Shown piece by piece: positions 10,446 to 27,350 of a stretch of 64,000 bases of DNA. Position numbers and translations under genes: made by a program. Numbering within the stretch: the first letter of the stretch is position 1; every line of letters begins with the position of its first letter. The notes beneath the pieces are model-generated. The model saw nothing but the letters and a program-made list of their open reading frames with translations. It was not told where the DNA came from and did not search any database. This DNA comes from Geminicoccaceae bacterium. Its GTDB lineage: Bacteria; Pseudomonadota; Alphaproteobacteria; Geminicoccales; Geminicoccaceae. The stretch covers positions 379,501-443,500 of the forward strand of contig AP024683.1 in NCBI GenBank assembly GCA_025999455.1, in the 5' to 3' direction.

Positions 10446-10451
10446 TCGGCC

Positions 10452-11378
10452 ATGACTGGCGAACTCGCCCGAACGAGGCATCTCGAGGAGCCGGAGGGCG
10501 AGGGTTATTTCGCGTCCGTCTCCGACCTGATGGTCGGCATCCTCTTCGTCTTCCTTCTGATGCTGACCGTCTTCGCGCTCAACTTCCAGGTTTCGAGCGA
10601 CGAGCTCGAGGCCGCCAAGCGCGAGCAGGCCCGGCTCGAGGCGCTCGCCCGCGAACGTGCCGAGGCCGCCGAGCGCGCGCAGCGGGAAGCGGAAGCGCTC
10701 CAGGCGCTGCTCGAACGACAGCGCACCGCTCTCCTGCGCGCCCTCGACCTGCTCGACCGCGAGGTCGAGTCCCGCCGGCGTGCCCGCGAGGCCCTGCTCA
10801 CACGGCTCCGCGACCGGCTCGAGGAGCGCGGCGTGCGGGTCGAGGTCGACGCCCGCTCGGGCGTCCTGCGTCTACCCGAGCGCGCGCTCCGCTTCGCCAC
10901 CCGCAGCGCCGATCTCGGCGAGGAGGCACGTGATGCCGTCCGCGTGGTGGCCGAGGTGATGGCCGAGGTGTTGCCCTGCTTCGCACACCGCGGGAGATCG
11001 CGAGACTGCGGCCCGGAGGACGCGCCGATCCTGGAGGCGGTCCTGGTCGAGGGCCACACCGATCGCCGCCCGCTCACCCCCGGGCCGGACTTCCGCGACA
11101 ACTTTCAGCTGTCGGCCGGGCGGGCGCTCACCGTCTACCGCGCGATGGCGGGCGCCCAGCCCGGCCTGTTGGCGCTGCGCAACCTCGAGGACCAGCCGTT
11201 GCTCGGCGTCTCGGGCTACGGCGAGACGCGGCCTTTGCCGAACGCCCAGGGCGATGCCGAGCGCGACTACGCCGCCAACCGGCGCATCGACATCCGCTTC
11301 ATCCTGACCGCGCGGACGGCCGAGGAGATCGAGCGGCTGCGCGAGGAGATCCGGGCGGTCCTGGAGTCCAGCCGGTGA
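10452..11378 (+). CDS. zorB: ZorB, MotB-like stator subunit with OmpA domain
   Basis: 308 aa. A short cytoplasmic N-terminus leads into one membrane helix, SVSDLMVGILFVFLLMLTVFAL. Asp25 at its start sits where MotB-type stators carry the proton-binding Asp. A helical linker follows (about 52-120). The C-terminal OmpA-like peptidoglycan-binding domain includes LVEGHTDRRPL, NFQLSAGRALTVYRAM, SGYGETRPL and NRRIDIRF. Two Cys in the periplasmic region (CFAHRGRSRDC) could form a disulfide. Together with ZorA it should form an ion-driven motor anchored to the cell wall that senses phage attack. Its stop codon overlaps the zorC start (GTGA). Confidence 0.9.
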   Translation: MTGELARTRHLEEPEGEGYFASVSDLMVGILFVFLLMLTVFALNFQVSSDELEAAKREQARLEALARERAEAAERAQREAEALQALLERQRTALLRALDLLDREVESRRRAREALLTRLRDRLEERGVRVEVDARSGVLRLPERALRFATRSADLGEEARDAVRVVAEVMAEVLPCFAHRGRSRDCGPEDAPILEAVLVEGHTDRRPLTPGPDFRDNFQLSAGRALTVYRAMAGAQPGLLALRNLEDQPLLGVSGYGETRPLPNAQGDAERDYAANRRIDIRFILTARTAEEIERLREEIRAVLESSR

Positions 11379-12781: not shown

Positions 12782-15687
12782 CCACCCGCTTCACCGTCAC
12801 CCCGAGCCCGGCCGGGACCGAGCTCCGCCTCGTGGGTCCGACGGGCCCCCTGCCGGTGGCGCAGTGGGCCGTCGACGCGCCGCTGCCGCTGCGGCCCGGG
12901 GTCGACCTGGTCCGCAAGCTCCTCGCCGCCGAGGGTGCCCTCGAGGACGTAGATTTCGTCCTGCTCGACCACGCCACGGTGGCCGGCCTCTCCGCCGCCG
13001 AAGCGGCGCAGCTCCAACTCCCGCCCGTGGTCGAGGCGGTCGCGGTGGTCGAGACGGAAGGCGTTGTCACCCGGCCCGATTTCCGCGTCCGCCTCGCCTG
13101 GGAGCGGCCGAGCGGTCAGCCCCTGCCGGGGGCACGGCGGCTGGGCACTTGGCTCGACGTCGGGACCGGTTGGCGGCGGATCCCCGAACCGCTCTTCTCG
13201 CTCGCCGAAACGATCGACGATTTCGCGCGGATCGAGCCGAGCAACGAGGCCGGCCGGATGCGCGCCCTCGCCCGAATTTGCGAGCTCCTCCCGGATCTGC
13301 GTTCCCGGAACGCCGCCCGCACGCCGAACCTCCTCGACCGGCTGCGGATCGCCGTGGCGGACGCCTTCTCGCTCGACCTCGAGGGCGAGGGGGCGGGTGC
13401 CCGCCTCGTGCCCCTGCTCTTTCGCGCAGGCGCCCCGGCGGGCGATGCCGAGCCGGCCCCGCTCCTCGACCCCACCCGCCAGGATCGCTTCGGCCGCGAG
13501 CTTTTCCACGCCTACGGCTCGGCCCGCGGGGTCTACGTCCTGGGCTCGGGCGACTGGGTCGTCCTCACGCCCCGCCTGCGCCGGGCACTCCAGGTCGTGC
13601 GCGAGGTCCAAGCCGCGCCGTGGCCGGTCAAGAAAGAGCTGTTGCGCGCGCCGCGCGCCTTCATCGCCGACCGGCTCGGCGAGGAGGACGGCAACGCCGA
13701 GCTCGAAACGCTGTTCGTCGAGACCCGCGCCTATGGCGAGCGGGTCCGCGGCGTCGGGCTCTGGCAGCCGCGGGTGTTACCCTGGGTTCCGATCGAGCCC
13801 ACCGACTGGCTCGGCACCGAGGGCGGCCCCGGCGTGCCTCCCGGCGCCGGCCGAACGCCCTTCCGCGGCGGCATCGTGATCGGCGATCGGCAGATCCCGC
13901 TGAGCGTCGAGCAGGCCCGGGAGCTCCGCACGGCGGTCGAGAACGCGCTCGGCCGCGGGGAGGAGAGGATCACCTTCGCGCATCCCGAACTCGGGCCGAT
14001 CGACGTTCCAGCCTCTCCGGAAACGCTCGCCGCCGTACAACGGACGATCGACGCGCTGACGGGAGCCTCTCGCACCGAAAGCGGGCCCGAGCCGGCGGCG
14101 CGCGAGCCCACCGGCCCCGGGCCCGAGGTGCTCTTGATTGAGCCGAACGAGACCGAGCTCGGCTTCGAGGCCCGCTTCCGCCGCCGTCCCTCGGGCCCGG
14201 TCGCACGCTTCGCCCGGGCGGTGCGCACCCCCCTCAAGGAGCACCAGCGCGACGGCGTGCTCTGGCTGCAGCGTTCCTGGGAGGCGGGCCGCCCCGGCGT
14301 GCTGCTCGCCGACGAGATGGGCCTCGGCAAGACGCTGCAGGTGCTCGCTTTCCTCGCCTGGCTGCGCGAAGCGATGGAGCGCGGCGAGGTGAAGCCCGGG
14401 CCCATCTTGATCGTGGCGCCCACGGGCCTGCTCGCCAACTGGAAGGCCGAGCACGATCGCCACCTCGAAGCGCCCGGCCTCGGCCGTCTGGTCGAGGCCT
14501 TCGGCAAGAGCCTCCAGGCACTCAAGCGACGAGCGTCCGACGACCGACTGGCGCTCGATCTGGCAACGCTCGCGCAGGCCGATTGGGTGCTCACCACCTA
14601 CGAGACGCTCCGCGACTGGCAGAAGGACTTCGGCGCCCTACGCTTCGCGGTGCTCGTCTTCGACGAAGCCCAGAAGATCAAAAACCCCGGGATACGGCTG
14701 ACCGATGCCGCCAAGGCCATGACGGCCGAGTTCAAGATCGCCCTGACCGGCACGCCGGTCGAGAACCGCCTGGCCGACCTCTGGTGCATCACCGATACGG
14801 TGCAGCCCGGACTCCTGGGTGAGCTGAAGAGGTTCAGTGAGACCTACGAGCAGCGGCAGGACCCGGAGAAGCTGCGCCGCCTTCGCCGTCTGCTCGACCG
14901 CTCAGACCGGGTCACCCCGCCCTTCCTCCTGCGGCGGCTGCGCGCCGATCACCTGCCGGACCTTCCGCCCTTCACCGTCGACCGCCGGGAACGGCCGATG
15001 CCGGCGCCGCAGCTCGCCGCCTACCGGGCGGCGATCGACCGAGCGCGCACCCGTGAGGCACCCGGCGCCATGCTCGCGACGCTCCACCGGCTCCGCCGCG
15101 TGAGCCTGCACCCCGAGCCGGAGCAACCGGACGATGTCGCACTCGTCGCGGGCTCCGCACGGCTCGACCTCGCGATCGAGGCACTCGATGCGATCGCCGC
15201 GGCGGGCGAGGCGGCGCTCCTCTTCCTCGACGATCTGGCCTTCGCCGCACGCCTCCAGGGGCTCCTGCAGCGCCGCTACCGGCTGCCGGAGCCACCCCAG
15301 GTGATCTCGGGCGAGGTCGCGGGCGGACGGCGCCAGCGCATCGTCGAGGCCTTTCAGCGCGGCCGCGGCTTCGGCGTGCTCCTGATGACCCCGCGGGCGG
15401 GCGGCGTCGGCCTCACGCTGACCCGCGCCAACCACGTGATCCACCTCGAGCGGTGGTGGAACCCGGCGGTCGAGGACCAGTGCAACGGCCGGGTGCTGCG
15501 GATCGGCCAGGAACGGGAGGTCCGGATCCTCCTCCCGCTCGCGGTCCTGCCCGACGGTCGGCCCTCCTTCGACCTCAACCTCGACGCGCTGCTCGAGCGC
15601 AAGCGGCGGCTGCACGAGGAGACGCTCGCCCCGCCCGCCTTCGAGGAGAGCGAGCTCGCCGAGCTCTTCGAGAAGACGGTCGCCTGA
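12778..15687 (+). CDS. zorD: ZorD, SNF2-family helicase/nuclease effector of type I Zorya
   Basis: 969 aa. The N-terminal half (about 1-470) is the poorly conserved ZorD-specific part. The SNF2-type helicase core follows: PLKEHQRDGVLWL, Walker A ADEMGLGKT at 511-519, DEAQ box near 628 (VFDEAQKIKN), LTGTPVENRLADLW, and the C-terminal RecA lobe with TPRAGGVGLTLTRANHVI and motif VI QCNGRVLRIGQ at about 901. ZorD is the DNA-degrading effector of type I systems. The start is a GTG overlapping the zorC stop. Longer in-frame starts would overlap most of zorC and are rejected. All ATPase motifs look intact, so the system should be functional. Confidence 0.9.
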   Translation: MTTRFTVTPSPAGTELRLVGPTGPLPVAQWAVDAPLPLRPGVDLVRKLLAAEGALEDVDFVLLDHATVAGLSAAEAAQLQLPPVVEAVAVVETEGVVTRPDFRVRLAWERPSGQPLPGARRLGTWLDVGTGWRRIPEPLFSLAETIDDFARIEPSNEAGRMRALARICELLPDLRSRNAARTPNLLDRLRIAVADAFSLDLEGEGAGARLVPLLFRAGAPAGDAEPAPLLDPTRQDRFGRELFHAYGSARGVYVLGSGDWVVLTPRLRRALQVVREVQAAPWPVKKELLRAPRAFIADRLGEEDGNAELETLFVETRAYGERVRGVGLWQPRVLPWVPIEPTDWLGTEGGPGVPPGAGRTPFRGGIVIGDRQIPLSVEQARELRTAVENALGRGEERITFAHPELGPIDVPASPETLAAVQRTIDALTGASRTESGPEPAAREPTGPGPEVLLIEPNETELGFEARFRRRPSGPVARFARAVRTPLKEHQRDGVLWLQRSWEAGRPGVLLADEMGLGKTLQVLAFLAWLREAMERGEVKPGPILIVAPTGLLANWKAEHDRHLEAPGLGRLVEAFGKSLQALKRRASDDRLALDLATLAQADWVLTTYETLRDWQKDFGALRFAVLVFDEAQKIKNPGIRLTDAAKAMTAEFKIALTGTPVENRLADLWCITDTVQPGLLGELKRFSETYEQRQDPEKLRRLRRLLDRSDRVTPPFLLRRLRADHLPDLPPFTVDRRERPMPAPQLAAYRAAIDRARTREAPGAMLATLHRLRRVSLHPEPEQPDDVALVAGSARLDLAIEALDAIAAAGEAALLFLDDLAFAARLQGLLQRRYRLPEPPQVISGEVAGGRRQRIVEAFQRGRGFGVLLMTPRAGGVGLTLTRANHVIHLERWWNPAVEDQCNGRVLRIGQEREVRILLPLAVLPDGRPSFDLNLDALLERKRRLHEETLAPPAFEESELAELFEKTVA

Positions 15688-15753
15688 GCCCCGCCGAAAA
15701 GTCACCGATCGCGTCGGGGATCGCGGATCCCGATCCGATTTGCTCGGCTATGT

Positions 15754-15782
15754 TTGACAGCATAGGGTCATGTTCATATAAG
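15754..15782 (+). promoter_or_regulatory. Near-consensus sigma-70 promoter
   Basis: TTGACA at 15754-15759, a 17-base spacer, and TATAAG at 15777-15782. This is about as close to the housekeeping consensus as occurs in so GC-rich a genome. Transcription would begin about 24 bases before the ATG at 15813. It separates the next gene from the Zorya operon as its own unit. Confidence 0.75.
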
Positions 15783-15812
15783 CAGGGAAAGAAGCCAGCA
15801 GGAGCCGACCCG

Positions 15813-16967
15813 ATGCTGCCGAACCCCGCCGCCCGGCCCACGACCACGGCCCGCCCCCGCTCGCCCGCCCAGATCGAAGCCGCGCGCCGCAACGGCGCCC
15901 GCTCCCGCGGCCCGGTCACCGCGGCGGGCAAGGCGCGCGCCGCGCGGAACGCGCTCCGCCACGGCCTCTGCTCGGCAACGATGCTGGCACCCGGCGAGGA
16001 TTCCGCCGCCTTCGAAGCCCTGCTCGCCGAGCTCCGAGCCGAGCTCGCACCCGCGAGCCACCTCGAAACGCTGCTCGTCGAACGGCTTGCCCTCACCTTC
16101 TGGAAGCTCGCCCGCTGCGACCGGCTCGAGGCCACGCTCGCCACGATCGCACCGCGCAATCCGGCCGGTCGAATCTACCCCGAACCCGGCCTTCCGCCGC
16201 TCCTCTCCCGGGTCCCCGAGGTTTCTCTCCTGCTCCGCTACCAGAGCCAGCTCGGCCGCGACCTGCAGCGCTTCCTGCGTCACTTCGCCGAGCCGCCGCG
16301 CGACGCGTCGTCCGGGGACGAAACAGCAGCGCTCGATGATACCGCGGATGTGACGGTCGGACCGGCCGAGACGTCGGGCGACCCCTTAGAAGCCGCGCTT
16401 TCGCGGAGCGAACCCGAACCCCCGACGTTCTCGCCCGCGGGCCTGCCGCCCGAGCCGGCAGCGGCCGCGGCCTCGTCGCCGAACGAACCCGAGCCCGATC
16501 CGATACCCGTAGCCGCGGCCGACGCCGCCCGGCCGGCCGCGCCGGCGACCGCTGCCGATCCCGTGCCACGCGCAGGGGCGAGCGGCAGGAGCACGCTCGA
16601 TCCGGCCGCACTCGGCGCACTCATGCGTCGGGCGATCGAGGACGGCGACGTAGCCGCGTTGGACGAGCTCGACCGCATCCTTCCGCGCGCCGCCGCCGAG
16701 CCGTCCGCCGCACCGAGCTCCCTCACCGCGGAATTGCGAAACGAACCCGAGCCGCGCCCGCTCGGCGACGTAGCGATCGCGGCGGCCTTCGCGGCCGGCC
16801 TCGGCGAGCCGGAAAGTCCCTTGATCGACACGCTCCGCGCCGACCCGGCGCTCTGCCGCCTCGTGCAGGACCAGCTCCTCGCCGAAGGCGATCTCGAGAC
16901 CTACGCCTGGTTGTGCGAGAGGGCGGGCGGCGGTTCGCCGTCCCCGGCCCCCACGGCTCCTGCTTGA
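15813..16967 (+). CDS. Unknown 384-aa protein with N-terminal SRGPVT-A-GKARAARNALRHG motif
   Basis: I recognise the N-terminal block but not a function. Residues 19-52 (AQIEAARRNGARSRGPVTAAG, then KARAARNALRHGL) form a basic motif seen at the start of many uncharacterised proteins of soil and aquatic bacteria, often in several copies per genome. The rest is helical up to about residue 165, then a long acidic Pro/Ala/Glu-rich low-complexity stretch, then a short helical C-terminus. There is no signal peptide or membrane helix. It has its own strong promoter and a CAGGAG ribosome site. It follows Zorya on the same strand but is not a known Zorya component. Confidence 0.65.
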   Translation: MLPNPAARPTTTARPRSPAQIEAARRNGARSRGPVTAAGKARAARNALRHGLCSATMLAPGEDSAAFEALLAELRAELAPASHLETLLVERLALTFWKLARCDRLEATLATIAPRNPAGRIYPEPGLPPLLSRVPEVSLLLRYQSQLGRDLQRFLRHFAEPPRDASSGDETAALDDTADVTVGPAETSGDPLEAALSRSEPEPPTFSPAGLPPEPAAAAASSPNEPEPDPIPVAAADAARPAAPATAADPVPRAGASGRSTLDPAALGALMRRAIEDGDVAALDELDRILPRAAAEPSAAPSSLTAELRNEPEPRPLGDVAIAAAFAAGLGEPESPLIDTLRADPALCRLVQDQLLAEGDLETYAWLCERAGGGSPSPAPTAPA

Positions 16968-16998: not shown

Positions 16999-17739
16999 TC
17001 AACGGCGCTCGTCGAGGGTGCGTGCTCGCGTCTCTGCGGGCGGCCGCCCCTGCGACGGCGAGGTCGGCGAGGACGCTCGGCCCTCGAGGATCCAGCCGAA
17101 GACGAGGACGGCCGCTGCCGCCCCGGCGAGCTGGGCTACCCAGAAGGCCGGCAGATCGACCGGGCGGATGCCGGCGAAGGTGTCGGAGAGCGCCCGCGCG
17201 AGGGTCACCGCGGGGTTGGCGAAGCTCGTCGAGCTCGTGAACCAGTAGGCCGCGGTGATGTAGAGGCCGACCGCCGGGGCGATCGCGGCGCGGGCGAAGC
17301 GCGAGCAACCCAGGATCGTCGCGAGCAGGCCGAAGGTCGCGACGAGCTCGCCGGTCCACTGGCCGAGCCCGGTACGCACCTTCGTGCCGAATTGGAGGAG
17401 CGGCAGATCGAACATCAGATGCGCCGTCAGGGCCCCGCAAATGCCGCCGAGCAGCTGGGCGAGGACGTAGGCGCCGGCCTCGCTCGAGGGGAGCTCGCGC
17501 CGCCAGGCCATGGCGAGGGAGACGGCGGGGTTCATGTGGGCACCCGAAATCGGGCCCAAGATCAAGATGAGCACCGTCAACATGGCGCCCGTGGGCAGCG
17601 TGTTGCCTAGCAGCGCGAGGGCCGTGTTCCCGCCCGCGAGCCGCTCGCCCATGATGCCCGAGCCCACGACGGTGCAGACGAGCGTGCCGGTGCCGAGGAA
17701 TTCGGCCGCGAGGCGGCGCGGCAGGTCGAACGCCGGCAC
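16999..17739 (-). CDS. aqpS: Aquaglyceroporin (AqpS-type arsenite channel)
   Basis: A 246-aa major intrinsic protein with six membrane helices and both NPA boxes: GAHMNPAVSLAMA in the first half and SFANPAVTLARAL in the second. It is the last gene of an arsR-arsC-aqpS operon, eight bases after arsC. In Sinorhizobium meliloti, AqpS replaces the ArsB/Acr3 pump and lets As(III) made by ArsC flow out down its gradient; the gene order supports the same role here. The GTG at 17739 is chosen with GGAGGG upstream. A TTG at 17751 overlapping the arsC stop is the alternative. No ArsB or Acr3 gene is visible. Confidence 0.85.
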   Translation of the reverse strand: MPAFDLPRRLAAEFLGTGTLVCTVVGSGIMGERLAGGNTALALLGNTLPTGAMLTVLILILGPISGAHMNPAVSLAMAWRRELPSSEAGAYVLAQLLGGICGALTAHLMFDLPLLQFGTKVRTGLGQWTGELVATFGLLATILGCSRFARAAIAPAVGLYITAAYWFTSSTSFANPAVTLARALSDTFAGIRPVDLPAFWVAQLAGAAAAVLVFGWILEGRASSPTSPSQGRPPAETRARTLDERR

Positions 17740-17747
17740 GGGCGCCC

Positions 17748-18257
17748 TCAACCCTCCCCGGGCGGCGGGGTCCGGCCGATCTCCTCGAGCCGGCGCTGCA
17801 AGGGGAGGCGGTCGAGGGAGGTGATCGGCAGGCTCACGAAGATTTTGATCCGGTTCTCCAGGTACGAATAGATCCGCAACCAGTGCCGCAGCTTGGCGTC
17901 GTCCGGGCCCTCGAACCGGACCGGGTCCTCGACGCCCCAATGGGCGGTGAGCGGCTGGCCGGGCCAGACCGGGCACACCTCCTGGGCGGCCTGGTCGCAG
18001 ACGGTGAACACGAAATCGAGCGGCGGCGCGCCGGGTGCCGCGAACTCGTCCCAGCTCTTCGAGCGCAGGCCCGCGATGTCGTAGTTGAGGCGGCGCAGTG
18101 TTTCGATCGTCATCGGGTGGACCACCCCCTTGGGATGGCTCCCCGCGGAAAATGCCTCGAAGCGGCCGGCGCCCCAGCGGCGGAGCGCGCATTCGGCCAT
18201 GATCGAGCGGGCCGAGTTGCCGGTGCAGAGGAAGAGGACGTTGAAACGCCTAACCAC
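17748..18257 (-). CDS. arsC: Arsenate reductase, low-molecular-weight phosphatase type
   Basis: 169 aa. The P-loop LFLCTGNSARSIMAE (C-x5-R-S) lies close to the N-terminus, as in the thioredoxin-linked ArsC and low-molecular-weight tyrosine phosphatase family. Further family marks are the FEAFSAGSHPKGVVHP segment and FVFTVCDQAAQEVCPVWPG, whose Cys residues could serve as the resolving pair. It reduces As(V) to As(III) in the cytoplasm. The GTG at 18257 overlaps the arsR stop codon; longer starts run deep into arsR. Product As(III) would leave through the neighbouring AqpS. Confidence 0.85.
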   Translation of the reverse strand: MVRRFNVLFLCTGNSARSIMAECALRRWGAGRFEAFSAGSHPKGVVHPMTIETLRRLNYDIAGLRSKSWDEFAAPGAPPLDFVFTVCDQAAQEVCPVWPGQPLTAHWGVEDPVRFEGPDDAKLRHWLRIYSYLENRIKIFVSLPITSLDRLPLQRRLEEIGRTPPPGEG

Positions 18258-18636
18258 GACAACGCCCACCCGGCTTCGGGTCGCTGGCGCAACCCGCCGC
18301 CCGGCGGCCGACCTCCTCGAGGAGGGGGACGAGGCCACCGCAGATCTCCGGGTGACCGCCGCAGCAATCCTCGGTCAAAAAGGAGAGCAGGCGGCGCATG
18401 GTCTCGAACTCGGCCGTGTAGAAGATCTGCCGGGCGCGGCGCCAGGAGCGGACGAGCCCGGCCCGGTCGAGCTCCTTGAGGTGGAACGAGAGGGTGGAGG
18501 GAGGCACTTGCAGCTGTTCGGCGATCGCGCCGGCGGGCATGCCGCTCGGTCCGGCCGCCACGAGCAAACGGAAGATGGCGAGCCGCGTCTCCTGCGCGAT
18601 CGCTTGGAGGGCCAGAACCGCCCGGGATTCGTCCAT
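18250..18636 (-). CDS. arsR: ArsR-family arsenic-responsive repressor
   Basis: 128 aa. A winged helix-turn-helix spans about residues 10-85 (AIAQETRLAIFRLLVAAGP, VPPSTLSFHLKELDRAGLV, RRARQIFYTAEF). The following C-terminal segment DCCGGHPEIC provides three Cys for As(III) binding. The absence of the ELCVCDL-type site in the DNA-recognition helix places it in the group that senses metalloid with C-terminal Cys. It heads the arsR-arsC-aqpS operon. An interrupted palindrome 38 bp upstream is a candidate operator, suggesting self-repression relieved by As(III). It could also govern the arx genes ending just upstream. Confidence 0.88.
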   Translation of the reverse strand: MDESRAVLALQAIAQETRLAIFRLLVAAGPSGMPAGAIAEQLQVPPSTLSFHLKELDRAGLVRSWRRARQIFYTAEFETMRRLLSFLTEDCCGGHPEICGGLVPLLEEVGRRAAGCASDPKPGGRCRG

Positions 18637-18673
18637 CCTTCCAACTCCGCCGAACCGAGACGGGCCTAGCCTC

Positions 18674-18710
18674 GGATCGTGACCGCTGCGTGACGATCCC
18701 CTCGGGATCG
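18674..18710. promoter_or_regulatory. Interrupted palindrome upstream of arsR, candidate operator
   Basis: GGATCGT at 18674-18680 and ACGATCC at 18693-18699 form a perfect 7-bp inverted repeat with a 12-base spacer. The right arm also belongs to a tight hairpin (CGATCCC, CTC, GGGATCG; 18694-18710). The position between the arxD end and the arsR start fits an ArsR operator. The hairpin could instead mark the arx transcript end, but it lacks a T-run. Confidence 0.4.
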
Positions 18711-18763
18711 CCGGCTCCGAGCCCCCGCCACGGGCCGTGGAACCACCGCGCGGTCGACCGTGG

Positions 18764-19612
18764 TCAGCCCGCGGCCGCGGTGCCTGCGGCCCGTCGGGCG
18801 AGATAGACGTCCTCGCGCCAGGCCGGCAAGGCCCGCACATGGTCGAAGCCGAGGCCCGCGGCCTCGAGGCGGACCGCGATCTCGGCGAGGTCTTCGGCGG
18901 TGGGCTCGCCGAGGCCCCGGCTCGATCCTTCCGGCAGCGCCCGTTCCGAGTCCTCGAAGCGGACGGCGCTCCGGCCGAGCTCGTGCTCGAGCGCGAGCCA
19001 GAGGAACCGGCCGAGCCAGAGATAGGCCGCGTTCCGCCCGGCCTCACCACAGGCCCGCTCGAGCGCCGCCACGAACGGCGTGACCCAGCGCCTCGGGAAG
19101 CGCGCGAGGAAGCGCTCGGCTTCGCTCGCGAGGGCGAGGGCGCGCATCTCCTCGCCCGCGTCCAGGGCCTCGGCGGCCCGCTCGTAGAGGCGGCCCACGA
19201 ACTCGAACTGCGGGGTCGGATGATCGGCGAGGTCGCGGAACGCCGGGTCGCGGACGAACCCGTGGCGTTCGTAGGCCCGGTTCATCTCGAGCTCGCTCGG
19301 GCCGAGCAGCGCCCCGTCGAGATAAATCGCGGTGTTGGTGGCCACGGGCGCCGGCGGGACGAGGAACAGGGCGGCGTAGAGCCGTTCGAGGTCGAGCGGC
19401 TCGGCGAGCGCGGCCGCGGCGGCCGCGAGCTCGCGCAGGCACTCGCCCGCTTCGATGCCGAGCTCCGCCGCGATGCTCGCGAGCGCCTCCGGCAGGTCGT
19501 CGCGGAAGGCGGTGTGGTACGCGGGCCCCGAGGGCTGGGCGAAGGCGCGGGCGAGGACGAGCCAGAGCTCGGCTCGGGAGCGGAGCAGAGTGGGCGTGAA
19601 CGACACCGACAA
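18764..19612 (-). CDS. arxD: TorD/NarJ-type molybdoenzyme chaperone (ArxD-like)
   Basis: 282 aa, all-helical, no membrane segment. It has the TorD/DmsD/NarJ layout: SRAELWLVLARAFAQP at the N-terminus, the LERLYAALFLVPPAPVATNTA segment, and PTPQFEFVGRLYERAAEA. Such chaperones bind the Tat signal of the catalytic subunit and oversee cofactor loading before export. It is the last gene of the molybdoenzyme operon, 81 bp after the NrfD-like subunit, matching the place of arxD in known arx clusters. TTG 19612 has GAGGAA upstream; GTG 19606 is the alternative. The C-terminal third is longer than in most TorD proteins. Confidence 0.75.
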   Translation of the reverse strand: MSVSFTPTLLRSRAELWLVLARAFAQPSGPAYHTAFRDDLPEALASIAAELGIEAGECLRELAAAAAALAEPLDLERLYAALFLVPPAPVATNTAIYLDGALLGPSELEMNRAYERHGFVRDPAFRDLADHPTPQFEFVGRLYERAAEALDAGEEMRALALASEAERFLARFPRRWVTPFVAALERACGEAGRNAAYLWLGRFLWLALEHELGRSAVRFEDSERALPEGSSRGLGEPTAEDLAEIAVRLEAAGLGFDHVRALPAWREDVYLARRAAGTAAAG

Positions 19613-19693
19613 CGCAGGTTCCTCGCCTCGGAAGACGGGGCGGCCGGCCCGCCGGACCGACCGCCCCCACGACAGGCTCGACGTTCGCGCTCC

Positions 19694-20839
19694 TCAGGAC
19701 TCCTTGGTCGACGACCAGCTCTCGAGCGCGGCGTAGACCGTGTTGGCGAGCAAGACGCCCACGATCAACAGCATCCACTCGAGCTGCGAGGGCTCGTACG
19801 AGAGCGGCGAGGGCGCCCAGCTGCCTTTGAAGGGCGGCAGGAGCTGGCCGTTGATGACGAACTCGTAGCGGCTCGCGAGCAGGCCCAGCGCGACGAGCAC
19901 CGCACCCAGGATCTGCAGCCAGGGCTGGGCGCGCAAGGCCGGCAGGGCGAAGATCACGAGCGGCACGATCCCGCCGCCGATCAAGGCCGCCCAGTAGAGC
20001 GGCTGGTCGACGGTGTAGCGCCAGACCTGCAACCCCTCGCCGTAGCTCCAGAGGCCCGCCACGGTCCGAACCACGGCGAAGAGGATGTGGAGGAAGATGG
20101 CGGCGGCCACGAACGTGCCGACCGACCCGGCGAGGAGCTCGCGGGTCGACTGGGGGACGCTGTCCACGGAGAAGCCGTGGATCAGATAGGTGAAGAAGAC
20201 GAAGAACACGATGCCGCCCATGAACGATTCGATCAGGAACGCCACGGGCAGCTCGCCGCCGTACCAGAACGGGCGGAAGATCATCATCGAATAGACCGAG
20301 CCGGCGATCAGCGTGATCGCGAGCGCGAGCACGGTCGCGAGCAGGGCGAGCGGCTTCGGGACCGCAGCCGGCGCCGTCCCCCGCGCGAAGGTCAGCGCGA
20401 GGAGCACGAGGACGATCGTGTAGGCGCCCACGCACAAGATCTTCCAGAAGAGCGGCGAGGCGGTCTGGAAGTTGAGCGGCGCTGCCCAGAGCGCGCGGAA
20501 CGGATGGGCGAGCTCCATGAAGAGGATCGCCACCCCGCCCACGAGCGCGGCGAGCGCGAGCCAGATGCAGCGCTTGGCGATCGGGTCGAACTGCCGCAGG
20601 CCGAGGGTGAGCGGCAGCGAGGCGAGCAGGGTCAGACCCGTCGAGGTCAACAGGAAATAGTCGTAGGCGACGATCGGCAGACCCCAGAACACGCCGTAAT
20701 TGGTCGTGTTGAAGCCCGCATGGCCAAGCGTCAGCTTCAGGTACATCGCGTAGACGAACGCGACCACGAAGAGCGCGCCGGCACCCACGAGATACGGCGA
20801 GGGCTTGAAAGCCGGCCGTGCGAGGGCAGCGGTTGCCAT
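19694..20839 (-). CDS. arxC: NrfD/PsrC-like quinone-interacting membrane subunit (ArxC-like)
   Basis: A 381-aa polytopic membrane protein with about ten hydrophobic segments, of the NrfD/PsrC family. It anchors the iron-sulfur and molybdopterin subunits in the membrane and exchanges electrons with the quinone pool. Segments such as PLWAAPLNFQT-like RALWAAPLNFQTASPLFWK and SMMIFRPFWYGGELPVAF are conserved in the family. It has no haem-ligand pattern. ATG 20839 is chosen because GGAGGAGG sits immediately upstream; a GTG two codons earlier is less well spaced. It lies 15 bases after arxB. In arsenite oxidation electrons would flow from ArxA through ArxB to quinone here. Confidence 0.8.
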   Translation of the reverse strand: MATAALARPAFKPSPYLVGAGALFVVAFVYAMYLKLTLGHAGFNTTNYGVFWGLPIVAYDYFLLTSTGLTLLASLPLTLGLRQFDPIAKRCIWLALAALVGGVAILFMELAHPFRALWAAPLNFQTASPLFWKILCVGAYTIVLVLLALTFARGTAPAAVPKPLALLATVLALAITLIAGSVYSMMIFRPFWYGGELPVAFLIESFMGGIVFFVFFTYLIHGFSVDSVPQSTRELLAGSVGTFVAAAIFLHILFAVVRTVAGLWSYGEGLQVWRYTVDQPLYWAALIGGGIVPLVIFALPALRAQPWLQILGAVLVALGLLASRYEFVINGQLLPPFKGSWAPSPLSYEPSQLEWMLLIVGVLLANTVYAALESWSSTKES

Positions 20840-20854
20840 CTCCACCTCCTCCGA

Positions 20855-21613
20855 TCAGCTCGTGCGCTGGGAGCGCTCACCCGGAACGACCGGTGCGCCA
20901 CCGCCCGAGAGGTAGTAGACCTGGGGCTTGTTGCCCGTCTCTTCCTTGAGCCGCACGCCGCGCTTGTCGGCGATGAGCTGGTTCACCTTGCTGTCGGGAT
21001 TGTCGAGATCGCCGAAATAGCGAGCCTTCGGCGGGCAAACCCGGACGCAGGCCGGTGTGTACTCGCGGGTTTCCGGATTGTCCTCGTCGAGGTCCGCAAC
21101 ACCTTTCGGCGCCTTGGAGATCTTGTGGTAGCAGAAGGTGCACTTCGAGACCACACCCGGCGGCTGAACGCCGATCCCGCGCTTCCTGTCCTCCAGATGA
21201 TCGGGCATCTTGTAAGGCGGGTTCCAGATGCGGTTTCCGTCGCCCGGAAAGACCTCGCGAAGGTCGGGCTGCACGACCGGCTTCTCGTCCATGTAGAAGC
21301 GCACGCCGTACGGGCACGCGATCATACAGTATTTGCAGCCGATACACTTGTCCCAGTCGACCAAGACGACGCCGTCCTCGGTCTTCCAGGTCGCTTTCGT
21401 CGGACACACGGCGACGCAGGACGGGTTCTCGCACTGCATGCACGGCCGTGGCAGCCAGGACAGCTTGACGTTCGGATAGGTACCTTCGTGATAGAAGAGC
21501 ACGTCCTGCCACGACTCACCGGGCAGCCGCGAATTCTCCATCGCGCAGGCCGTCGTGCAGGCCTGGCAGCCGGTGCACTTGTCGAGGTCGATGACCATAC
21601 CCCACTTCGTCAT
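20855..21613 (-). CDS. arxB: Four-cluster [4Fe-4S] electron-transfer subunit (ArxB-like)
   Basis: 252 aa of the DmsB/PsrB/NrfC family. Four Cys groups are present: CTGCQACTTAC, CMQCENPSCVAVCP, CIGCKYCMIACP, and a split last set CTFC with ACVRVCP. This predicts four [4Fe-4S] clusters. It has no signal sequence of its own, as expected for a subunit carried through the Tat pore with the catalytic partner. The start ATG is 18 bases after the catalytic subunit stop. An insert between clusters three and four (DLREVFPGDGNRIWNPPYKM) is longer than in DmsB. It passes electrons between the molybdenum subunit and the NrfD-like membrane protein. Confidence 0.85.
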   Translation of the reverse strand: MTKWGMVIDLDKCTGCQACTTACAMENSRLPGESWQDVLFYHEGTYPNVKLSWLPRPCMQCENPSCVAVCPTKATWKTEDGVVLVDWDKCIGCKYCMIACPYGVRFYMDEKPVVQPDLREVFPGDGNRIWNPPYKMPDHLEDRKRGIGVQPPGVVSKCTFCYHKISKAPKGVADLDEDNPETREYTPACVRVCPPKARYFGDLDNPDSKVNQLIADKRGVRLKEETGNKPQVYYLSGGGAPVVPGERSQRTS

Positions 21614-21631
21614 GTCCTCGTCTCCCTCGGC

Positions 21632-24109
21632 TCAGGCCCGCTCGACCGTGACCTTGGTCGTATAGTAGTTGCACTGACCGGTGATCCGGTCGGATTGGTT
21701 GACCGTGCACTCGCCCGAATGGCCACCGGGGACGGCCATCGACCAACGCCCGGCCCGCCAGTGACCCCATTCCATGGGCAAGACGATCGTGTCCGGCCGG
21801 GTGCCTTCGAAGAGCCGACAACGCACTCGGATCTCGCCGACGCTCGACCGGATCCGCACCCAATCGCGGTCCTTGATGCCCCGCTGGCGTGCCGTCTCGG
21901 GGTGGATCTCGACGAAGGCCTCACCCCGGCCGCCCACGACCGGCTGAAAGTGGGCGATGACCATCGGAATGTTGTGTCCGCGGCCTTCGGCGTGGAGCGC
22001 CTGCTTCGGCGTGACGAGGTAGAGATCACCGCCGCCCGGATGCTTCGGCTCCTCCCAGATCGGGAACATGAGCTTCGTCTTGTCGCGCCCCGTTTTGGCG
22101 GCGATCCACTCGGCGTTCGCTTCGAGCAACCCCGACCGGATTTCGAATTTTCCGGATGGCGTCTTCAACAGCTTGGCTTTCACCTCCTCGGCGGTCATGG
22201 GCTTGTTGTAGCCCTTGCCGTCCCATTCGAAGAATTCGCCGCGGATCTGCCGCCAGAGATACGGCTTCTTGTACCAGACACCCTTCTCCACCCACTTCTC
22301 GAAGCTGTCGACCCCGTTGTCGCCAGGATTCTTCTCGAAACCCTTGGCGAGATGGCGGAGGACGTTCTCGGAGCTCTCGAGCTTTTTGTAGTACTCGCCC
22401 ATCGGACCTTTGATGCGCTTGCCGATCTCGATGAGCGTGTCACCGAAATATTTCGTGTCGTAGAGCGGCTTGACGGCCGGTACCCGGATCTGGGTGAGCG
22501 GATACCCTTCGAACGGATAAGTCGGCGCGTCCTGCAGCCGCTCGAGATAGGTGTGATCGGGCAGGATCAGGTCGGCGAAGTGGCCGGTCTCCGAGGGGAA
22601 GGGCGAGGTGTCGATGACGAACACGTCTTGCAGCGCCTGTTCCCAAACCTGACCGTTCGGTGCCGTCCAAATCGGGTTGGTCTGGTAGAACAGGATCGTG
22701 TCGAGTTTGTACGGTTTACCGGCGAGGTGGTTCGGCCCGACTTCCTGCATCATGTTGTTGGCGAGCAGGTAGCCGTCGGGATGACCCTTGAGATCGATCC
22801 GGGGATATTGCTTCCAAGTCCCGTTCTTCGCCCATTCGTCCATGTAATCTTCGGCTTTGGCCGGTAGGGCGCCGTAGAGCGGGCTCATTTGGTACATCAT
22901 CCCGCCCTCGGCGAAGAGCGAGCCCACGAGCGCGTTCAGCGTGTGGATCGCCATGGCGTTGTAGATGCCGTTCGAATGGGCGTGGGCGCCACGCTCCATG
23001 ATCGCCATGGCCGGGCGGGTCGAGCCGAACTCGCGGGCGGTGGCGAGGATGTCCCGCTCGCGCAACGTCGTGACCTTGGCGGCCCAGGCGGGTGTGCGGT
23101 CCTTGAGCTCGACGTTCCACCACTCGACGAGCCCCTTGACCCACTTCTCTTGGAAGCTCGCCGGGTCGACCGTCTGGCCGCTCTTGAAGCGGTTCACGCC
23201 GTCCACGAAGTCGCCGACGAACGACCGCTCCCAGAGCCCCTCGGTCAAGATCACGTGGGCGATGGCCAGCGCCAGCGCCCCGTCGGTGCCGGGCTTGATC
23301 AAGAGGCCGCGGTCGGCGGCGGCGAGGGTGGTGTTGACGTGGACATCGACCGCGGTGACCCGGGTCTTCGGGCTCTTCTCGCCGCGGATGTAGCCCCACA
23401 CCTGCATGTTGTTGTTGTAAGGCCGGAACGCATCCAAGAAGCCACAGCCGAACATCAAGATGTAGTTGGTGTGGTGATAGTCGTGGGCGTTGTATCCGCC
23501 GTTACCGTCGGTCGCCTTCTTGGCGATGATCGAGCCGTCGGAGCACATCGACGAGTGGCCGATCGGCACGTTCGGCGAGCCGTAGAGCTTGCCGAAATCG
23601 CCGAGCAGGCCGGCGCAGGACGCCCCCCATCCGCGGCCGTAAAGAATGGCGAAGCGGTGGCTCTCCCCCTTCTCGCGCAACGCGTTGAGGCGGTCGGCGA
23701 CGGTCTTGAGAGCCTCGTCCCAGCTGATCGGGACGAATTTGGGATCCTCGTTGCGGCCCTTCTTCGGGTTGGTCCGCTTCATCGGACCTTTCCAGCGGTC
23801 CGGATCGTAGAGGACGTAGATGCCGAGCGGTCCCTTGGGGCACAGCTTGCCGTTCGAGATGGGATGATCCGGGGTACCGTAGATGGCGTGCACCCGCCCG
23901 TTCGTCACGTAGACGTCGATCCCGCAGCGGGCCGGGCATTGATGGCAGATGTTCTTGACGATCTTCGTCGCGGCCGCCGGCTGCGCCCGCGCCGTGCCGT
24001 CGCTCTCCCGGCCGGGCAGCAGGGTCTGTCCACCGAGGGCGAGGGCCGATCCGGCACCGGTCGCCTGGAGGAACCGCCGCCGACTGGTACTGGCCGTGAC
24101 TTGTTCCAT
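21632..24109 (-). CDS. arxA: Molybdopterin oxidoreductase, Arx-type arsenite oxidase catalytic subunit
   Basis: 825 aa of the DMSO reductase family. A Tat signal (STSRRRFLQATGAG) starts at residue 9. Cys55, Cys58, Cys62 and Cys90 bind the N-terminal [4Fe-4S] cluster. Residues 157-162 read YGRGWG; I recall GRGWG as characteristic of ArxA arsenite oxidases, where the related arsenate reductases ArrA have a different motif. Cys189 in GHSSMCSDGS is the likely molybdenum ligand. The C-terminal pterin-binding domain (DWVRIRSSVGEIRVR, SDRITGQCNYYTT) is complete. The gene order with a polyferredoxin, FeS subunit, NrfD and TorD, next to arsRC-aqpS, supports arsenite oxidation. Polysulfide, thiosulfate or arsenate reductase are alternatives. 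Confidence 0.78.
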   Translation of the reverse strand: MEQVTASTSRRRFLQATGAGSALALGGQTLLPGRESDGTARAQPAAATKIVKNICHQCPARCGIDVYVTNGRVHAIYGTPDHPISNGKLCPKGPLGIYVLYDPDRWKGPMKRTNPKKGRNEDPKFVPISWDEALKTVADRLNALREKGESHRFAILYGRGWGASCAGLLGDFGKLYGSPNVPIGHSSMCSDGSIIAKKATDGNGGYNAHDYHHTNYILMFGCGFLDAFRPYNNNMQVWGYIRGEKSPKTRVTAVDVHVNTTLAAADRGLLIKPGTDGALALAIAHVILTEGLWERSFVGDFVDGVNRFKSGQTVDPASFQEKWVKGLVEWWNVELKDRTPAWAAKVTTLRERDILATAREFGSTRPAMAIMERGAHAHSNGIYNAMAIHTLNALVGSLFAEGGMMYQMSPLYGALPAKAEDYMDEWAKNGTWKQYPRIDLKGHPDGYLLANNMMQEVGPNHLAGKPYKLDTILFYQTNPIWTAPNGQVWEQALQDVFVIDTSPFPSETGHFADLILPDHTYLERLQDAPTYPFEGYPLTQIRVPAVKPLYDTKYFGDTLIEIGKRIKGPMGEYYKKLESSENVLRHLAKGFEKNPGDNGVDSFEKWVEKGVWYKKPYLWRQIRGEFFEWDGKGYNKPMTAEEVKAKLLKTPSGKFEIRSGLLEANAEWIAAKTGRDKTKLMFPIWEEPKHPGGGDLYLVTPKQALHAEGRGHNIPMVIAHFQPVVGGRGEAFVEIHPETARQRGIKDRDWVRIRSSVGEIRVRCRLFEGTRPDTIVLPMEWGHWRAGRWSMAVPGGHSGECTVNQSDRITGQCNYYTTKVTVERA

Positions 24110-24146
24110 CACTCCGCTCTCCCTGCTTCGCGCGTTCGCGACCACC

Positions 24147-25307
24147 TCAAGTTCCGTTGCTCGGCCGCAGCTCGCCGTCGCCGCGAACCCAGCGGTGAAC
24201 CACACGCAAGAGATCCAGGTCCTTCTCGCAAGCCGGGCAGCGCCCGCTCGGCGAAGGCGGTCCGTAGCTCGCCCCACACTCGCCGCACCGGGCGAGGCTG
24301 CGCCGGCGCAACGTCCGGCGGCGCACCGGCTCGTCCTCGCCGGCCGGCAAAAAGGCGAGCGAGTCGGTCGGACAGACCTCGACGCACGCCCGGCAACCCG
24401 TGCACAGCGTCGGATCGAAGGCGAGCACGCTCGACTCGTCGCTCACCTCGAGCTCGAGCGCACCCGTGGGGCAGCTCGCGGCGCACAATCGCCGGTCGCA
24501 GCAGCTGTCGGCGACCACGAGCTCGGGAAACAGGGACGCCGGGGCTCGTTCCCGGCCGGCCATCGCGGCCAAGGTGCCGGCCCGCTCGCGCAGCGCTGTC
24601 GGGTCGACCCGCCCGGGTCGGCCTTCGCCGGACAGGACGAGCCGCCGTGGTCCAAGCTGCTCGCGGACCTCGCCCGCCCCGCGCAGGAAGGCGCGCCGGC
24701 CGAGCCCGACCTCGAGCGGGCGCGGCGGGCCGGGCGGCGGTCCGGCGACGTCGCGCGAGAGCGGCTCGCGGAGGACGGCGACGCGACGGGCAGCGCCCAG
24801 ACGCGCGAGCTCGTCGCCGATGCGCTCCAGGGCGTCCCGCCACGGCTCGTCGACGCCGCCCGCGGGACAATCGCGGCACCAACCGCGGTCGACCACGAGA
24901 ACGACCCCGTCCGCCGTTCGGACGAGCAGGCGCCGGAGGAGCGACGGGCTCACACCCCCGAGACAGGGGACGAGGGCCGTCCCCGGAGCCCGCGCGCCCG
25001 GCGGGACGCGGCCACATTCGAGCCGCGTCGTGTCCGCGGGAACCGTGTCGAAGCCGTCGACGCGGATCGCCTCGGTGGGACAGGAAGCGGCGCAGCGCCC
25101 GCAGCGCAGGCAACGATCGAGGGAAAGTGAAAGCGAACGCTCGGCGAGCTCGATCGCGTCGACGGGGCAGATCCGCGCGCACGCCTCACAGGGAACGCCC
25201 GGCCTCCGGACGGTGAGACAGCGTTCGGCGAGGGCCTCGACGGACGCCGGCCGGACCTTCGCTCGGCCCGTTTCGTCGGCCGCGGCGGCGAGCCCTCCCC
25301 GCGCCAA
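24147..25307 (-). CDS. Polyferredoxin with four cluster motifs and zinc ribbon (ArxB'-like)
   Basis: 386 aa. Two Cys-rich ferredoxin modules are N-terminal (CEACARICP, CLRCGRCAASCP) and two lie near residues 270-325 (CCDRRLCAASCP, CTGCRACVEVCP). A roughly 150-residue middle part contains CRDCPAGG and resembles a nucleotide- or partner-binding domain. The C-terminus has a zinc ribbon (CGECGASYG and CPACEKDL). It is first in the operon, 37 bases ahead of the catalytic subunit. Known arx clusters begin with an extra FeS gene (arxB2 or arxB'), so this is probably its counterpart. No export signal is seen, so it may act in the cytoplasm. TTG 25307 has GGAGGG upstream. Confidence 0.7.
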   Translation of the reverse strand: MARGGLAAAADETGRAKVRPASVEALAERCLTVRRPGVPCEACARICPVDAIELAERSLSLSLDRCLRCGRCAASCPTEAIRVDGFDTVPADTTRLECGRVPPGARAPGTALVPCLGGVSPSLLRRLLVRTADGVVLVVDRGWCRDCPAGGVDEPWRDALERIGDELARLGAARRVAVLREPLSRDVAGPPPGPPRPLEVGLGRRAFLRGAGEVREQLGPRRLVLSGEGRPGRVDPTALRERAGTLAAMAGRERAPASLFPELVVADSCCDRRLCAASCPTGALELEVSDESSVLAFDPTLCTGCRACVEVCPTDSLAFLPAGEDEPVRRRTLRRRSLARCGECGASYGPPSPSGRCPACEKDLDLLRVVHRWVRGDGELRPSNGT

Positions 25308-25359
25308 GACTCTTGCCCTCCCTGCAACTCCTTACAGTTCCAGGATACCGGAAAGGTAG

Positions 25360-25371
25360 CCTTGCGCAAGG
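25360..25371. promoter_or_regulatory. Perfect 12-bp palindrome upstream of the arx operon
   Basis: CCTTGCGCAAGG is self-complementary and lies 53 bp before the first arx gene. On the minus strand TTGCGC within it could serve as a -35, with TATCCT 16 bases further as a -10. The palindrome would then cover the promoter, as expected for a repressor or activator site. No regulator gene of the arxXSR type is in the window. Confidence 0.4.
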
Positions 25372-25445
25372 CGCATGGATCCGTTGCGATCGGCACGCGG
25401 CAGGCTGTCGCAGGACCTTGCCCGCCGGCCGCAGCCGGCAGTCGG

Positions 25446-27350
25446 TCAGCTCGCGGACCGGCGGGGATAGCCCAGTCGGCCGAGCGCTTCCGCGATCTCG
25501 CCCAGGATCGCCGGGTCGTCGATCGTGGCCGGCATCGTCCAGGGCTGGCCGTCGGCGATCTTCTTCATCGTCCCGCGCAGGATCTTGCCCGAGCGGGTCT
25601 TGGGCAGGCGCTTGACGACGGTGACGAGCTTGAAGGCGGCGACCGGGCCGATCTCGTCACGCACCTTCTGGACGAGATCGCGCTCGATCTCGGCGTGCGG
25701 CCGCTCCACCCCGGCCTTGAGGACGACGAGGCCGAGCGGCAATTCGCCCTTGAGCTCGTCGGCGACCCCGATCACCGCGCATTCGGCCACGTCCTTGTGG
25801 CTCGCGAGGACCTCCTCCATGGCGCCGGTCGAGAGCCGGTGACCGGCGACGTTGATGACGTCGTCGATCCGGCTCATGATGAAAAGATAGCCGTCCTCGT
25901 CTTTGAAGCCGGCGTCACCCGTCAAGTAATAGCCGGGATAGCGCGACAGATAGGATTGGACGAAGCGCTCGTCGGCGTTCCACAAGGTGGGCAGGCAGGA
26001 GGGTGGTAAGGGCAGCTTGATGCAGATCGCGCCGAGCTTGCCCGGCGGAACCTCGTGGCCCTCCTCGTCGAGGACGCGGACGTCGTAGCCCGGCATGGGC
26101 AGGGTCGGCGAGCCCGGCTTGACCGGCAGCTTCTCGATGCCGAGCGGGTTGGCGCAGATCGCCCAGCCGGTCTCGGTCTGCCACCAATGGTCGATCACCG
26201 GCACGCCGAGCTGGGCCTCGGCCCACAGGAGCGTGTCGGGGTCGCAGCGCTCGCCCGCGAGGAACAGAGCGCGGAACCGCGAGAGATCGTACTTCTTGAT
26301 GTAGGTGCCCTCGGGGTCCTCCTTCTTGATCGCCCGGAAGGCGGTGGGTGCGGTGAAGAGCACCCGCACGTCGTGCTGGGAGATGACGCGCCAGAACGCC
26401 CCCGGATCGGGCGTGCCCACGGGCTTGCCTTCGTAGACGATCGTCGTGTTGCCGTTCAAAAGCGGCCCGTAGACGATGTAGCTGTGGCCCACGACCCAGC
26501 CGACGTCGGAGGCCGCCCAATAGACCTCGCCCGGCTGGACCCCGTAGACGTTGCGCATGCTCCAGGCGAGTGCCACGGCGTGGCCGCCATTGTCGCGGAC
26601 GATGCCCTTGGGCTGACCGGTCGTGCCCGAGGTGTAGAGGATGTAGAGCGGATCGGTCGCCTCGACCGGCACGCAATCGACCGGGTGGGCCGCCGCCATC
26701 GCCTCCTCCCAGTCGAGGTCGCGGCCCGGCACGAGCTCGGCGCGCAGCTGCGGCCGCTGCAGGATCACGCAGTGCCGCGGCGCGTGGGCGGATTGGGCGA
26801 GGGCGGCGTCGAGGAGCGGCTTGTAGGCGACGATCCGGCCGGGCTCGATGCCGCAGGAGGCCGAGACGATCAGCACCGGCTTGGCGTCGTCGACGCGCTT
26901 GGCGAGCTCGTGGCTCGCGAAGCCGCCGAACACCACCGAGTGGACGGCGCCGATCCGGGCGCAGGCGAGCATCGCGATCACCGCCTCGGGCACCATCGGC
27001 ATGTAGACGACGACCCGATCGCCCTTGCGGACGCCGAGCCGGACCATCGCACCCGCGAAGCGCGCCACCCGGTCCTGGAGCTCGGCGTAGGTGAGAGTGC
27101 GGATCGTGCCGGTGACCGGGCTGTCGTGGATCAGGGCCGGCTGCGAGGCGCGGCCGGCCGCGACGTGCCGGTCGACGGCGTTCCAGCAGGTGTTGAGGAG
27201 CCCGCCCGGGAACCAGCGGTAGAAGGGCGGCCGGGACTCGTCGAGGACGCGATCGAACCGCCGCTCCCACGCGACGAGTTCGGCGGCCTCGGCCCAGAAG
27301 CTTTCCGGATCGTCCAGGCTGCGCCGCCAGATCGCCCGATAGATGCTCAT
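25446..27350 (-). CDS. prpE: Propionyl-CoA synthetase (AMP-forming)
   Basis: 634 aa of the acetyl/propionyl-CoA synthetase family. The adenylate-forming signature is YTSGTTGQPKGIVRDNGGH; the IVRDNGG extension is typical of PrpE rather than Acs. Other core motifs are the A5 region DHWWQTETGW, the A7 TGD in YYLTGDAGFKDEDGYLF, and the A10 Lys in LPKTRSGKILRG, the usual acetylation-controlled residue. It activates propionate with ATP and CoA. No methylcitrate or methylmalonyl genes are in the window, so its pathway partners lie elsewhere. It is transcribed toward the arx operon as a separate unit. Start ATG at 27350. Confidence 0.88.
   Translation of the reverse strand: MSIYRAIWRRSLDDPESFWAEAAELVAWERRFDRVLDESRPPFYRWFPGGLLNTCWNAVDRHVAAGRASQPALIHDSPVTGTIRTLTYAELQDRVARFAGAMVRLGVRKGDRVVVYMPMVPEAVIAMLACARIGAVHSVVFGGFASHELAKRVDDAKPVLIVSASCGIEPGRIVAYKPLLDAALAQSAHAPRHCVILQRPQLRAELVPGRDLDWEEAMAAAHPVDCVPVEATDPLYILYTSGTTGQPKGIVRDNGGHAVALAWSMRNVYGVQPGEVYWAASDVGWVVGHSYIVYGPLLNGNTTIVYEGKPVGTPDPGAFWRVISQHDVRVLFTAPTAFRAIKKEDPEGTYIKKYDLSRFRALFLAGERCDPDTLLWAEAQLGVPVIDHWWQTETGWAICANPLGIEKLPVKPGSPTLPMPGYDVRVLDEEGHEVPPGKLGAICIKLPLPPSCLPTLWNADERFVQSYLSRYPGYYLTGDAGFKDEDGYLFIMSRIDDVINVAGHRLSTGAMEEVLASHKDVAECAVIGVADELKGELPLGLVVLKAGVERPHAEIERDLVQKVRDEIGPVAAFKLVTVVKRLPKTRSGKILRGTMKKIADGQPWTMPATIDDPAILGEIAEALGRLGYPRRSAS

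Follow-up and report, generated by a model that had tools for sequence, protein, structure and literature searches.

We found that a 64,000-nucleotide stretch of a Geminicoccaceae chromosome (the window, by which we mean this whole stretch) carries an eight-gene locus, arxB2-arxA-arxB-arxC-arxD-arsR-arsC-aqpS, that very probably encodes a group 2 ARX arsenite oxidase feeding electrons to quinones, and most likely from there to oxygen, together with a linked arsenic-detoxification module. This reading is drawn from gene content and order, phylogeny, conservation within the genus and genome context. The genes are co-oriented on the minus strand from 25307 to 16999, with intergenic spacings, in order from arxB2 to aqpS, of 37, 18, 9, 81, 127, -8 and 8 bp.

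arxB2, 24147..25307, minus strand: polyferredoxin of 386 aa; two ferredoxin-like regions and a pair of CxxC at the C-terminus; no leader seen by eye
arxA, 21632..24109, minus strand: 825-aa molybdopterin catalytic subunit with a twin-arginine leader and a YGRGWG motif
arxB, 20855..21613, minus strand: 252-aa iron-sulfur subunit with 16 cysteines, enough for four [4Fe-4S] clusters
arxC, 19694..20845, minus strand: 383-aa NrfD/PsrC-type membrane anchor (PF03916)
arxD, 18764..19612, minus strand: 282-aa TorD/NarJ-like chaperone (PF02613; TIGR03482 under its cut-off)
arsR, 18250..18636, minus strand: 128-aa repressor of the ArsR/SmtB family, with cysteines (CC...C) clustered toward the C-terminus (NF033788 above its cut-off)
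arsC, 17748..18257, minus strand: 169-aa low-molecular-weight-phosphatase-fold arsenate reductase with a CTGNSARS loop; 8-bp overlap with arsR
aqpS, 16999..17739, minus strand: 246-aa major intrinsic protein (MIP) channel

Scans with Pfam and NCBIfam recognized a Mo-cofactor (molybdopterin) oxidoreductase, two 4Fe-4S proteins, an NrfD protein and a TorD/NarJ-like chaperone in the arx part, and an ArsR/SmtB protein, an ArsC of the phosphatase fold and a MIP channel in the ars part. The arsC product scored under the curated TIGR02691 cut-off, and we assigned it by fold family, motif and context. The repressor, reductase and channel genes form one tight cluster (-8 and 8 bp) and qualify as an ArsR-ArsC-AqpS operon. 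A long ATG frame (18192-16999) that covers aqpS opens inside arsC; the start of aqpS is more likely the GTG at 17739. An earlier note on this DNA had the coordinates, gene calls and 825-residue length right, and the arx gene order it gave (arxB2ABCD) was borne out by the gene calls and family scans. It had also described an ars operon directly downstream of, and joined to, the arx operon. The arsR-arsC-aqpS set does follow arx directly, and the two are joined in the sense of being adjacent and co-oriented, whether or not they share a transcript.

Identity of the catalytic subunit

The earlier note had taken the 825-residue protein for ArxA on account of a GRGWG motif, and we found both that the motif is present and that the protein falls within the ArxA clade. 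In a 27-row tree the ArxA clade, with the window protein inside it and ArrA outside as its sister, had support of 97/99, and a 93-row tree gave the same arrangement; the ArrA rows included the enzyme of PDB 6cz7 (presumably that of Shewanella ANA-3). Forcing the window protein together with the three ArrA rows was rejected in the approximately unbiased (AU) test (p-AU 0.003). PhsA, a paralogue from the same genome (L002) and a plasmid homologue all fell outside the ArxA+ArrA clade (support 98/96). Thus, in the phylogeny that the earlier note had proposed as its check, the protein grouped neither with ArrA nor with PhsA; TtrA was not among the rows. The paralogue L002, which we labeled SoeA-like on our own assumption, had PhsA as its best NCBIfam model, below the cut-off, when scanned as a partial protein.

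The outgroup branches of the tree are very long; the split between ArxA and ArrA does not depend on these outgroups alone, because the motif also separates the two. We found XGRGWG in all 89 ArxA rows (including three pairs of rows with the same protein, L106/L067, L103/L077 and L110/L042; L106 and L103 were removed before the tree) and RGRY in all three ArrA rows, while PhsA was without the motif. This matches the rule given in passages of PMC6549141, that ArxA has XGRGWG where ArrA has (R/K)GRY. Moreover, ArrA was the best NCBIfam model for the window protein, at 434 bits, and its curated cut-off of 1600 was far from reached. We rejected an ArrA identity, since the protein lies outside the ArrA clade, has GRGWG instead of RGRY and scores 434 against 1600 bits; likewise, PhsA/PsrA and SoeA-like identities were rejected, since PhsA and the SoeA-like paralogue lie outside the ArxA+ArrA clade. 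As far as its sequence tells, the 825-residue protein is ArxA.

The leader of this protein reads SRRRFLQ, and its cluster motif is C55-x2-C-x3-C-x27-C. Four alignment columns (R, H, C and Y) were invariant across the 89 ArxA and three ArrA rows, and we take these to be active-site positions. A lysine that we presume to be an ArrA active-site residue is an isoleucine in the window and a lysine in 36 of the 89 ArxA rows, and so does not discriminate. The nearest proteins in the tree were alphaproteobacterial ArxA, within a larger group that includes the ArxA of Ectothiorhodospira, Thiocapsa and Tepidimonas. By this placement of our own, in trees whose rows did not include the PHS-1 or MLHE-1 ArxA, we equate this larger group, and with it the window protein, with group 2 ARX of Ooki et al. 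2019 (PMC6549141). The locus resembles that group, as described in passages of the paper (Ectothiorhodospira sp. PHS-1 and alpha-, beta- and gammaproteobacterial members), in its ArxA clade, GRGWG motif and arxB2ABCD order; it differs in having arsR-arsC-aqpS directly downstream, and in a genome with no photosynthetic reaction center or NarG above cut-off and, like some known ARX members, no detected ArxX.

Among plasmid records, of which 60 of 200 were listed, none of those listed was annotated as ArrA. One plasmid, pAZKH of Azoarcus sp. KH32C (L113, 65-6423), carries a Mo-enzyme cluster with genes for a PhnD/SsuA-type binding protein, a sensor kinase, NrfD and TorD; its enzyme lay outside both ArxA and ArrA in the tree and may represent an unnamed enzyme related to the arsenic oxidoreductases.

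Distribution of arx and the arx-ars junction

The host is alphaproteobacterial, as the earlier note had it, Geminicoccaceae being Alphaproteobacteria. That note had also thought an alphaproteobacterial Arx worth confirming, Arx being known mainly from gamma- and betaproteobacteria, but such a case is not new: group 2 has included Alphaproteobacteria since the 2019 survey (PMC6549141), and a plasmid-borne Cereibacter ArxA is 76% identical to that of the window. By our own count of titles, 16 of the named relatives are alphaproteobacterial, these relatives being the best 80 of 135 confirmed ArxA loci (the other 55 were outside the survey). The ARX enzyme type and its presence in Alphaproteobacteria are already known; it is the gene partnership that is unusual.

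The genome of the window is a single contig of 3.76 Mb. ArxA matches occurred in 8 of 31 genomes of the family, counting this one. Within the genus (6 genomes, again including it) four carry a close form of ArxA (90-100% identical), G024 has a divergent, deep-branching one (64% identical), and G021 gave no ArxA match. In the four genomes with the close form, G000 (that of the window), G020, G022 and G023, arx occupies one chromosomal site, beside an acyl-CoA synthetase gene and two-component genes; in the window the former flanks arx and lies outside the system.

acetyl-CoA-synthetase-like gene, 25446..27350, minus strand: marker of the conserved site

Third-codon G+C is 0.85-0.94 across all eight genes. 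Because four congeners have the site and its neighbors in common and third-codon G+C is uniform, we read the arx locus as an old resident of the genus, and for the same reasons we rejected a recent acquisition by the species of the window. An older transfer of arx is likely, since the overall G+C of arxA (0.64) and arxB (0.63) lies below that of the window (0.72) and since G024 has a different, deep-branching ArxA. The deep-branching lineage comprises Geminicoccaceae proteins with HGRGWG or AGRGWG (L102, from G024, and L103, from G003, the same protein as L077) and one from a Hyphomicrobiales metagenome-assembled genome (L078) with TGRGWG; neither ArxD nor ArxXSR had a match in the L102 or L103 stretches.

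The arx-ars junction is a variable feature of the genus and no fixed unit, as the presence of aqpS and arsR varies among congeners. The window and G020 (contig C224, L138) both show the order arxD-arsR-arsC-aqpS, G022 has arxD-arsR-arsC, and in G023 arsC alone was recognizable after arxD. The arx stretch of G020 (L008) ends right after arxC, and its arsR-arsC-aqpS genes lie on another contig; in G024 the arsR-arsC-aqpS set (with a partial arsR match) is on a contig other than that of arx. Where the window has aqpS, the genes downstream of arsC in two congeners include some that resemble, by eye, genes for SoxX/SoxA c-type cytochromes (L100, 15915-17359; L101, 15273-15713).

For a wider comparison we fetched 82 other arx loci; 63 of these reach 4 kb or more upstream of ArxA, and 54 reach 5 kb or more downstream. 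In 36 of the 82 there were ars genes of some kind, in variable arrangements, and AqpS was found in none of the 82, many of which are truncated. A same-direction ars gene lay within 900 bp of the arxD match, with distances taken from BLAST match ends, in L006, L025 and L035 (among 57 loci that extend 0.9 kb or more past arxD), and also near arxD in L037, where only 0.8 kb is available. Of these four, only L006 has its ars gene close enough to look joined. This is plasmid pORIO3 of Cereibacter azotoformans ORIO, the source of the 76% identical ArxA, which shares the gene order and likewise has an ArsR gene, 58 bp after arxD; unlike the window, it has an upstream arsD-arsA-acr3-arsC set and genes that we read as ArxX, ArxS and ArxR, and its ArsR is followed by a permease where the window has ArsC and AqpS.

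The ars part has its own likenesses. In passages of PMC4435449 the aqpS ars operon of Sinorhizobium meliloti likewise encodes ArsC and a MIP channel together, and its AqpS is described as a bi-directional arsenite transporter; in the window, by contrast, the ars set follows arxD. Of 73 plasmid matches to the aqpS product of the window, the 12 that were listed, on rhizobial, Microvirga and other plasmids, show 63.5-70.0% identity and cover 77-80% of the protein, and two of the 12 were annotated with ArsC under the same match; the comparison did not include the AqpS of S. meliloti. By this sequence relation, AqpS is a putative As(III) channel. Acr3 scored above cut-off in 10 of the 31 family genomes, none of them the genome of the window or G020-G023 (G023 had one match below cut-off), in searches that did not address ArsB and other efflux families as such. 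Arsenic islands built around aio (passages of PMC3834237) also cluster an arsenite oxidase with ars genes, but their AioA is a different enzyme, and the genome of the window has no AioA above cut-off. A literature search found no paper linking Geminicoccaceae with arsenite (the passages of PMC12954392 that came up do not tie the two) and none joining arxA, arsenite oxidase and carboxysome.

Regulatory sequences

No ArxXSR regulators were recognized near arx in the window. ArxX was found neither there nor in the congener stretches L099-L101, and a search of the whole genome, which had no in-genome positive control, also found none with a query that detects ArxX in other loci. ArxX was found in 45 of the 63 relatives' loci that reach 4 kb or more upstream of ArxA. 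Its absence from some known ARX members is reported in passages of PMC6549141, so missing ArxXSR does not exclude membership in ARX. We noted one candidate element upstream of each end of the system.

GTCAC-N6-GTCA direct repeat, 18680..18694, minus strand: in the arxD-arsR gap, candidate arsR operator
GCCTTGCGCAAGGC palindrome, 25359..25372, minus strand: upstream of arxB2, found by eye, perfect in the window only

Counting both strands, the 64-kb window has a single copy of the direct repeat (a first-order Markov chain predicts 0.17); the repeat recurs at the equivalent position in G020 and G022 and is absent from G023; the arsR of G024, on its other contig, has only a GTCA-N8-GTCA match upstream. 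Since the whole arxD-arsR gap is 62-73% identical between the window, G020 and G022, this conservation points only weakly to an arsR operator. We dropped the idea of an operator shared by arx and ars, as the repeat lies upstream of arsR and not of arxB2; this position argues against assuming that ArsR controls arx, and is most simply explained if arsR has a promoter or operator of its own. G020 and G022 share with the window a CTTGCGC...TTCCGGTA block upstream of arxB2, but without the perfect palindrome. In a simple scan, neither strand showed a sigma-70-like promoter (0.3 in shuffles), and of the two terminator-like sites detected (4.0 in shuffles) none was on the minus strand.

Proposed electron flow, rival explanations and ArxB2

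Four COX1-family genes of the genome pass the cut-off, two of which score much lower; nothing passed it for NarG, AioA or a photosynthetic reaction center. Four other DMSO-family genes were found with ArxA as the query, and none passes a nitrate-reductase cut-off (for L002 and L004 the scan was of partial proteins). The genome also has a locus for carbon fixation in which genes for CsoS2 and CsoSCA follow that for the RuBisCO large chain.

alpha-carboxysome-type locus, L107 ~10326-16690 (C1:2519000-2538500 of the same genome): genes for the RuBisCO large chain, CsoS2 and CsoSCA, preceded by a divergent LysR regulator

With these neighbors, the RuBisCO large chain makes lithoautotrophy a plausible prediction.

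We infer the substrate, the direction of the reaction, the acceptor, the regulation and a closed As(III)/As(V) loop as follows. ArxD would mature ArxA, and the twin-arginine (Tat) pathway would export ArxA together with ArxB. By analogy with the known family, ArxA would oxidize As(III) to As(V) outside the cytoplasmic membrane, and electrons would pass through the clusters of ArxB to ArxC and the quinone pool. From there they would most likely reach oxygen through heme-copper oxidases, given the four COX1-family genes and the lack of NarG, AioA and a reaction center above cut-off, and this flow may support CO2 fixation via the alpha-carboxysome. ArsR would sense cytoplasmic As(III) and control at least arsR-arsC-aqpS; ArsC would reduce As(V) that leaks in, and AqpS would release the resulting As(III) down its gradient. 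The cycle of oxidation, re-reduction and release that the earlier note had proposed is thus chemically sensible and plausible. What looks new is the combination: an ARX that is chromosomal and conserved in a Geminicoccaceae genus, has arsRC-aqpS linked to it and no detected ArxX, and lies in an apparently oxygen-respiring, carbon-fixing genome. A bolder version, in which a vertically inherited (micro)aerobic ARX drives alpha-carboxysome CO2 fixation with arsenite, has dropped ArxXSR for one cytoplasmic ArsR, and is wired to ArsC and, in place of a pump, a passive channel, leaked arsenate thereby being turned back into electron donor, strikes us as unlikely in its entirety.

ArxA can run in both directions in vitro, and the enzyme might instead work in reverse as a respiratory arsenate reductase, an ArrA-like role in which AqpS would remove As(III). 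Its sister position to ArrA and the 434-bit match to the ArrA model fit that role; the score far under 1600 bits, the position outside the ArrA clade, the GRGWG motif in place of the RGRY of ArrA, the four COX1-family genes and the carboxysome-type locus all speak against it and make it highly improbable. We give almost no credence to a sulfur-compound enzyme (PsrA/PhsA/SoeA-type) misread as ArxA: the superfamily is the same, and SoxX/SoxA-like genes follow arsC in two congeners, but this explanation is already contradicted by the exclusion of PhsA, L002 and the plasmid homologue from the ArxA+ArrA clade and by the missing motif of PhsA. Pure detoxification deserves more attention, as a minority possibility: extracellular As(III) would be oxidized without energy gain, the ars genes would be ordinary neighbors, and the cycle would have no physiological meaning. 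The varied ars genes in 36 of 82 arx loci, the independent joining of ars operons in aio islands (passages of PMC3834237) and the missing aqpS and arsR of congeners favor this account; the retained NrfD-type ArxC and the carboxysome-type locus argue for the other side. It also overlaps our preferred reading, an ARX oxidase feeding quinones beside a detoxification module, which itself needs no energy gain.

Several findings weigh against that preferred reading. The overall G+C of arxA and arxB departs from that of the window. The loop is no fixed unit, since arsR was not found between arxD and arsC in G023 and aqpS had no match in G022 or G023, which have the same arx locus. Control of arx by ArsR finds no counterpart in the sequence upstream of arxB2, where none of the four genomes has a copy of the GTCAC-N6-GTCA repeat. 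Oxygen is only a probable acceptor and AqpS need not be the sole exit for As(III), since no search was aimed at NapA, ArsB or other efflux families as such. Finally, ARX is known to work only anaerobically according to passages of PMC6620896. On the side of the preferred reading, passages of PMC6549141 describe a betaproteobacterium with arx and without aio in which arsenite was oxidized when nitrate or 1-2% O2 was supplied, though not under 20% O2. ARX was first defined in soda-lake gammaproteobacteria, which use it with nitrate or light (passages of PMC6549141 and PMC6620896). If the system is active, ARX-to-oxygen lithoautotrophy becomes testable in a lineage without arsenite work in the literature searched, and the congeners with and without arsR or aqpS are natural variants for probing the contribution of the ars genes.

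ArxB2, the role of which is termed unclear in passages of PMC6549141, had a tblastn match in 77 of the 82 relatives' loci (overlaps removed). An internal twin-arginine-like RRxFL motif lies mid-protein at residue 203, and RRxF[LMFVI] occurs in 53 of 70 ArxB2 stretches longer than 280 aa. Between the window and G020, ArxB2 (L008, 8794-9945) is 67% identical, compared to 94% for ArxA and 98% for ArxB, and on this comparison ArxB2 seems to be evolving much faster than its partner subunits.

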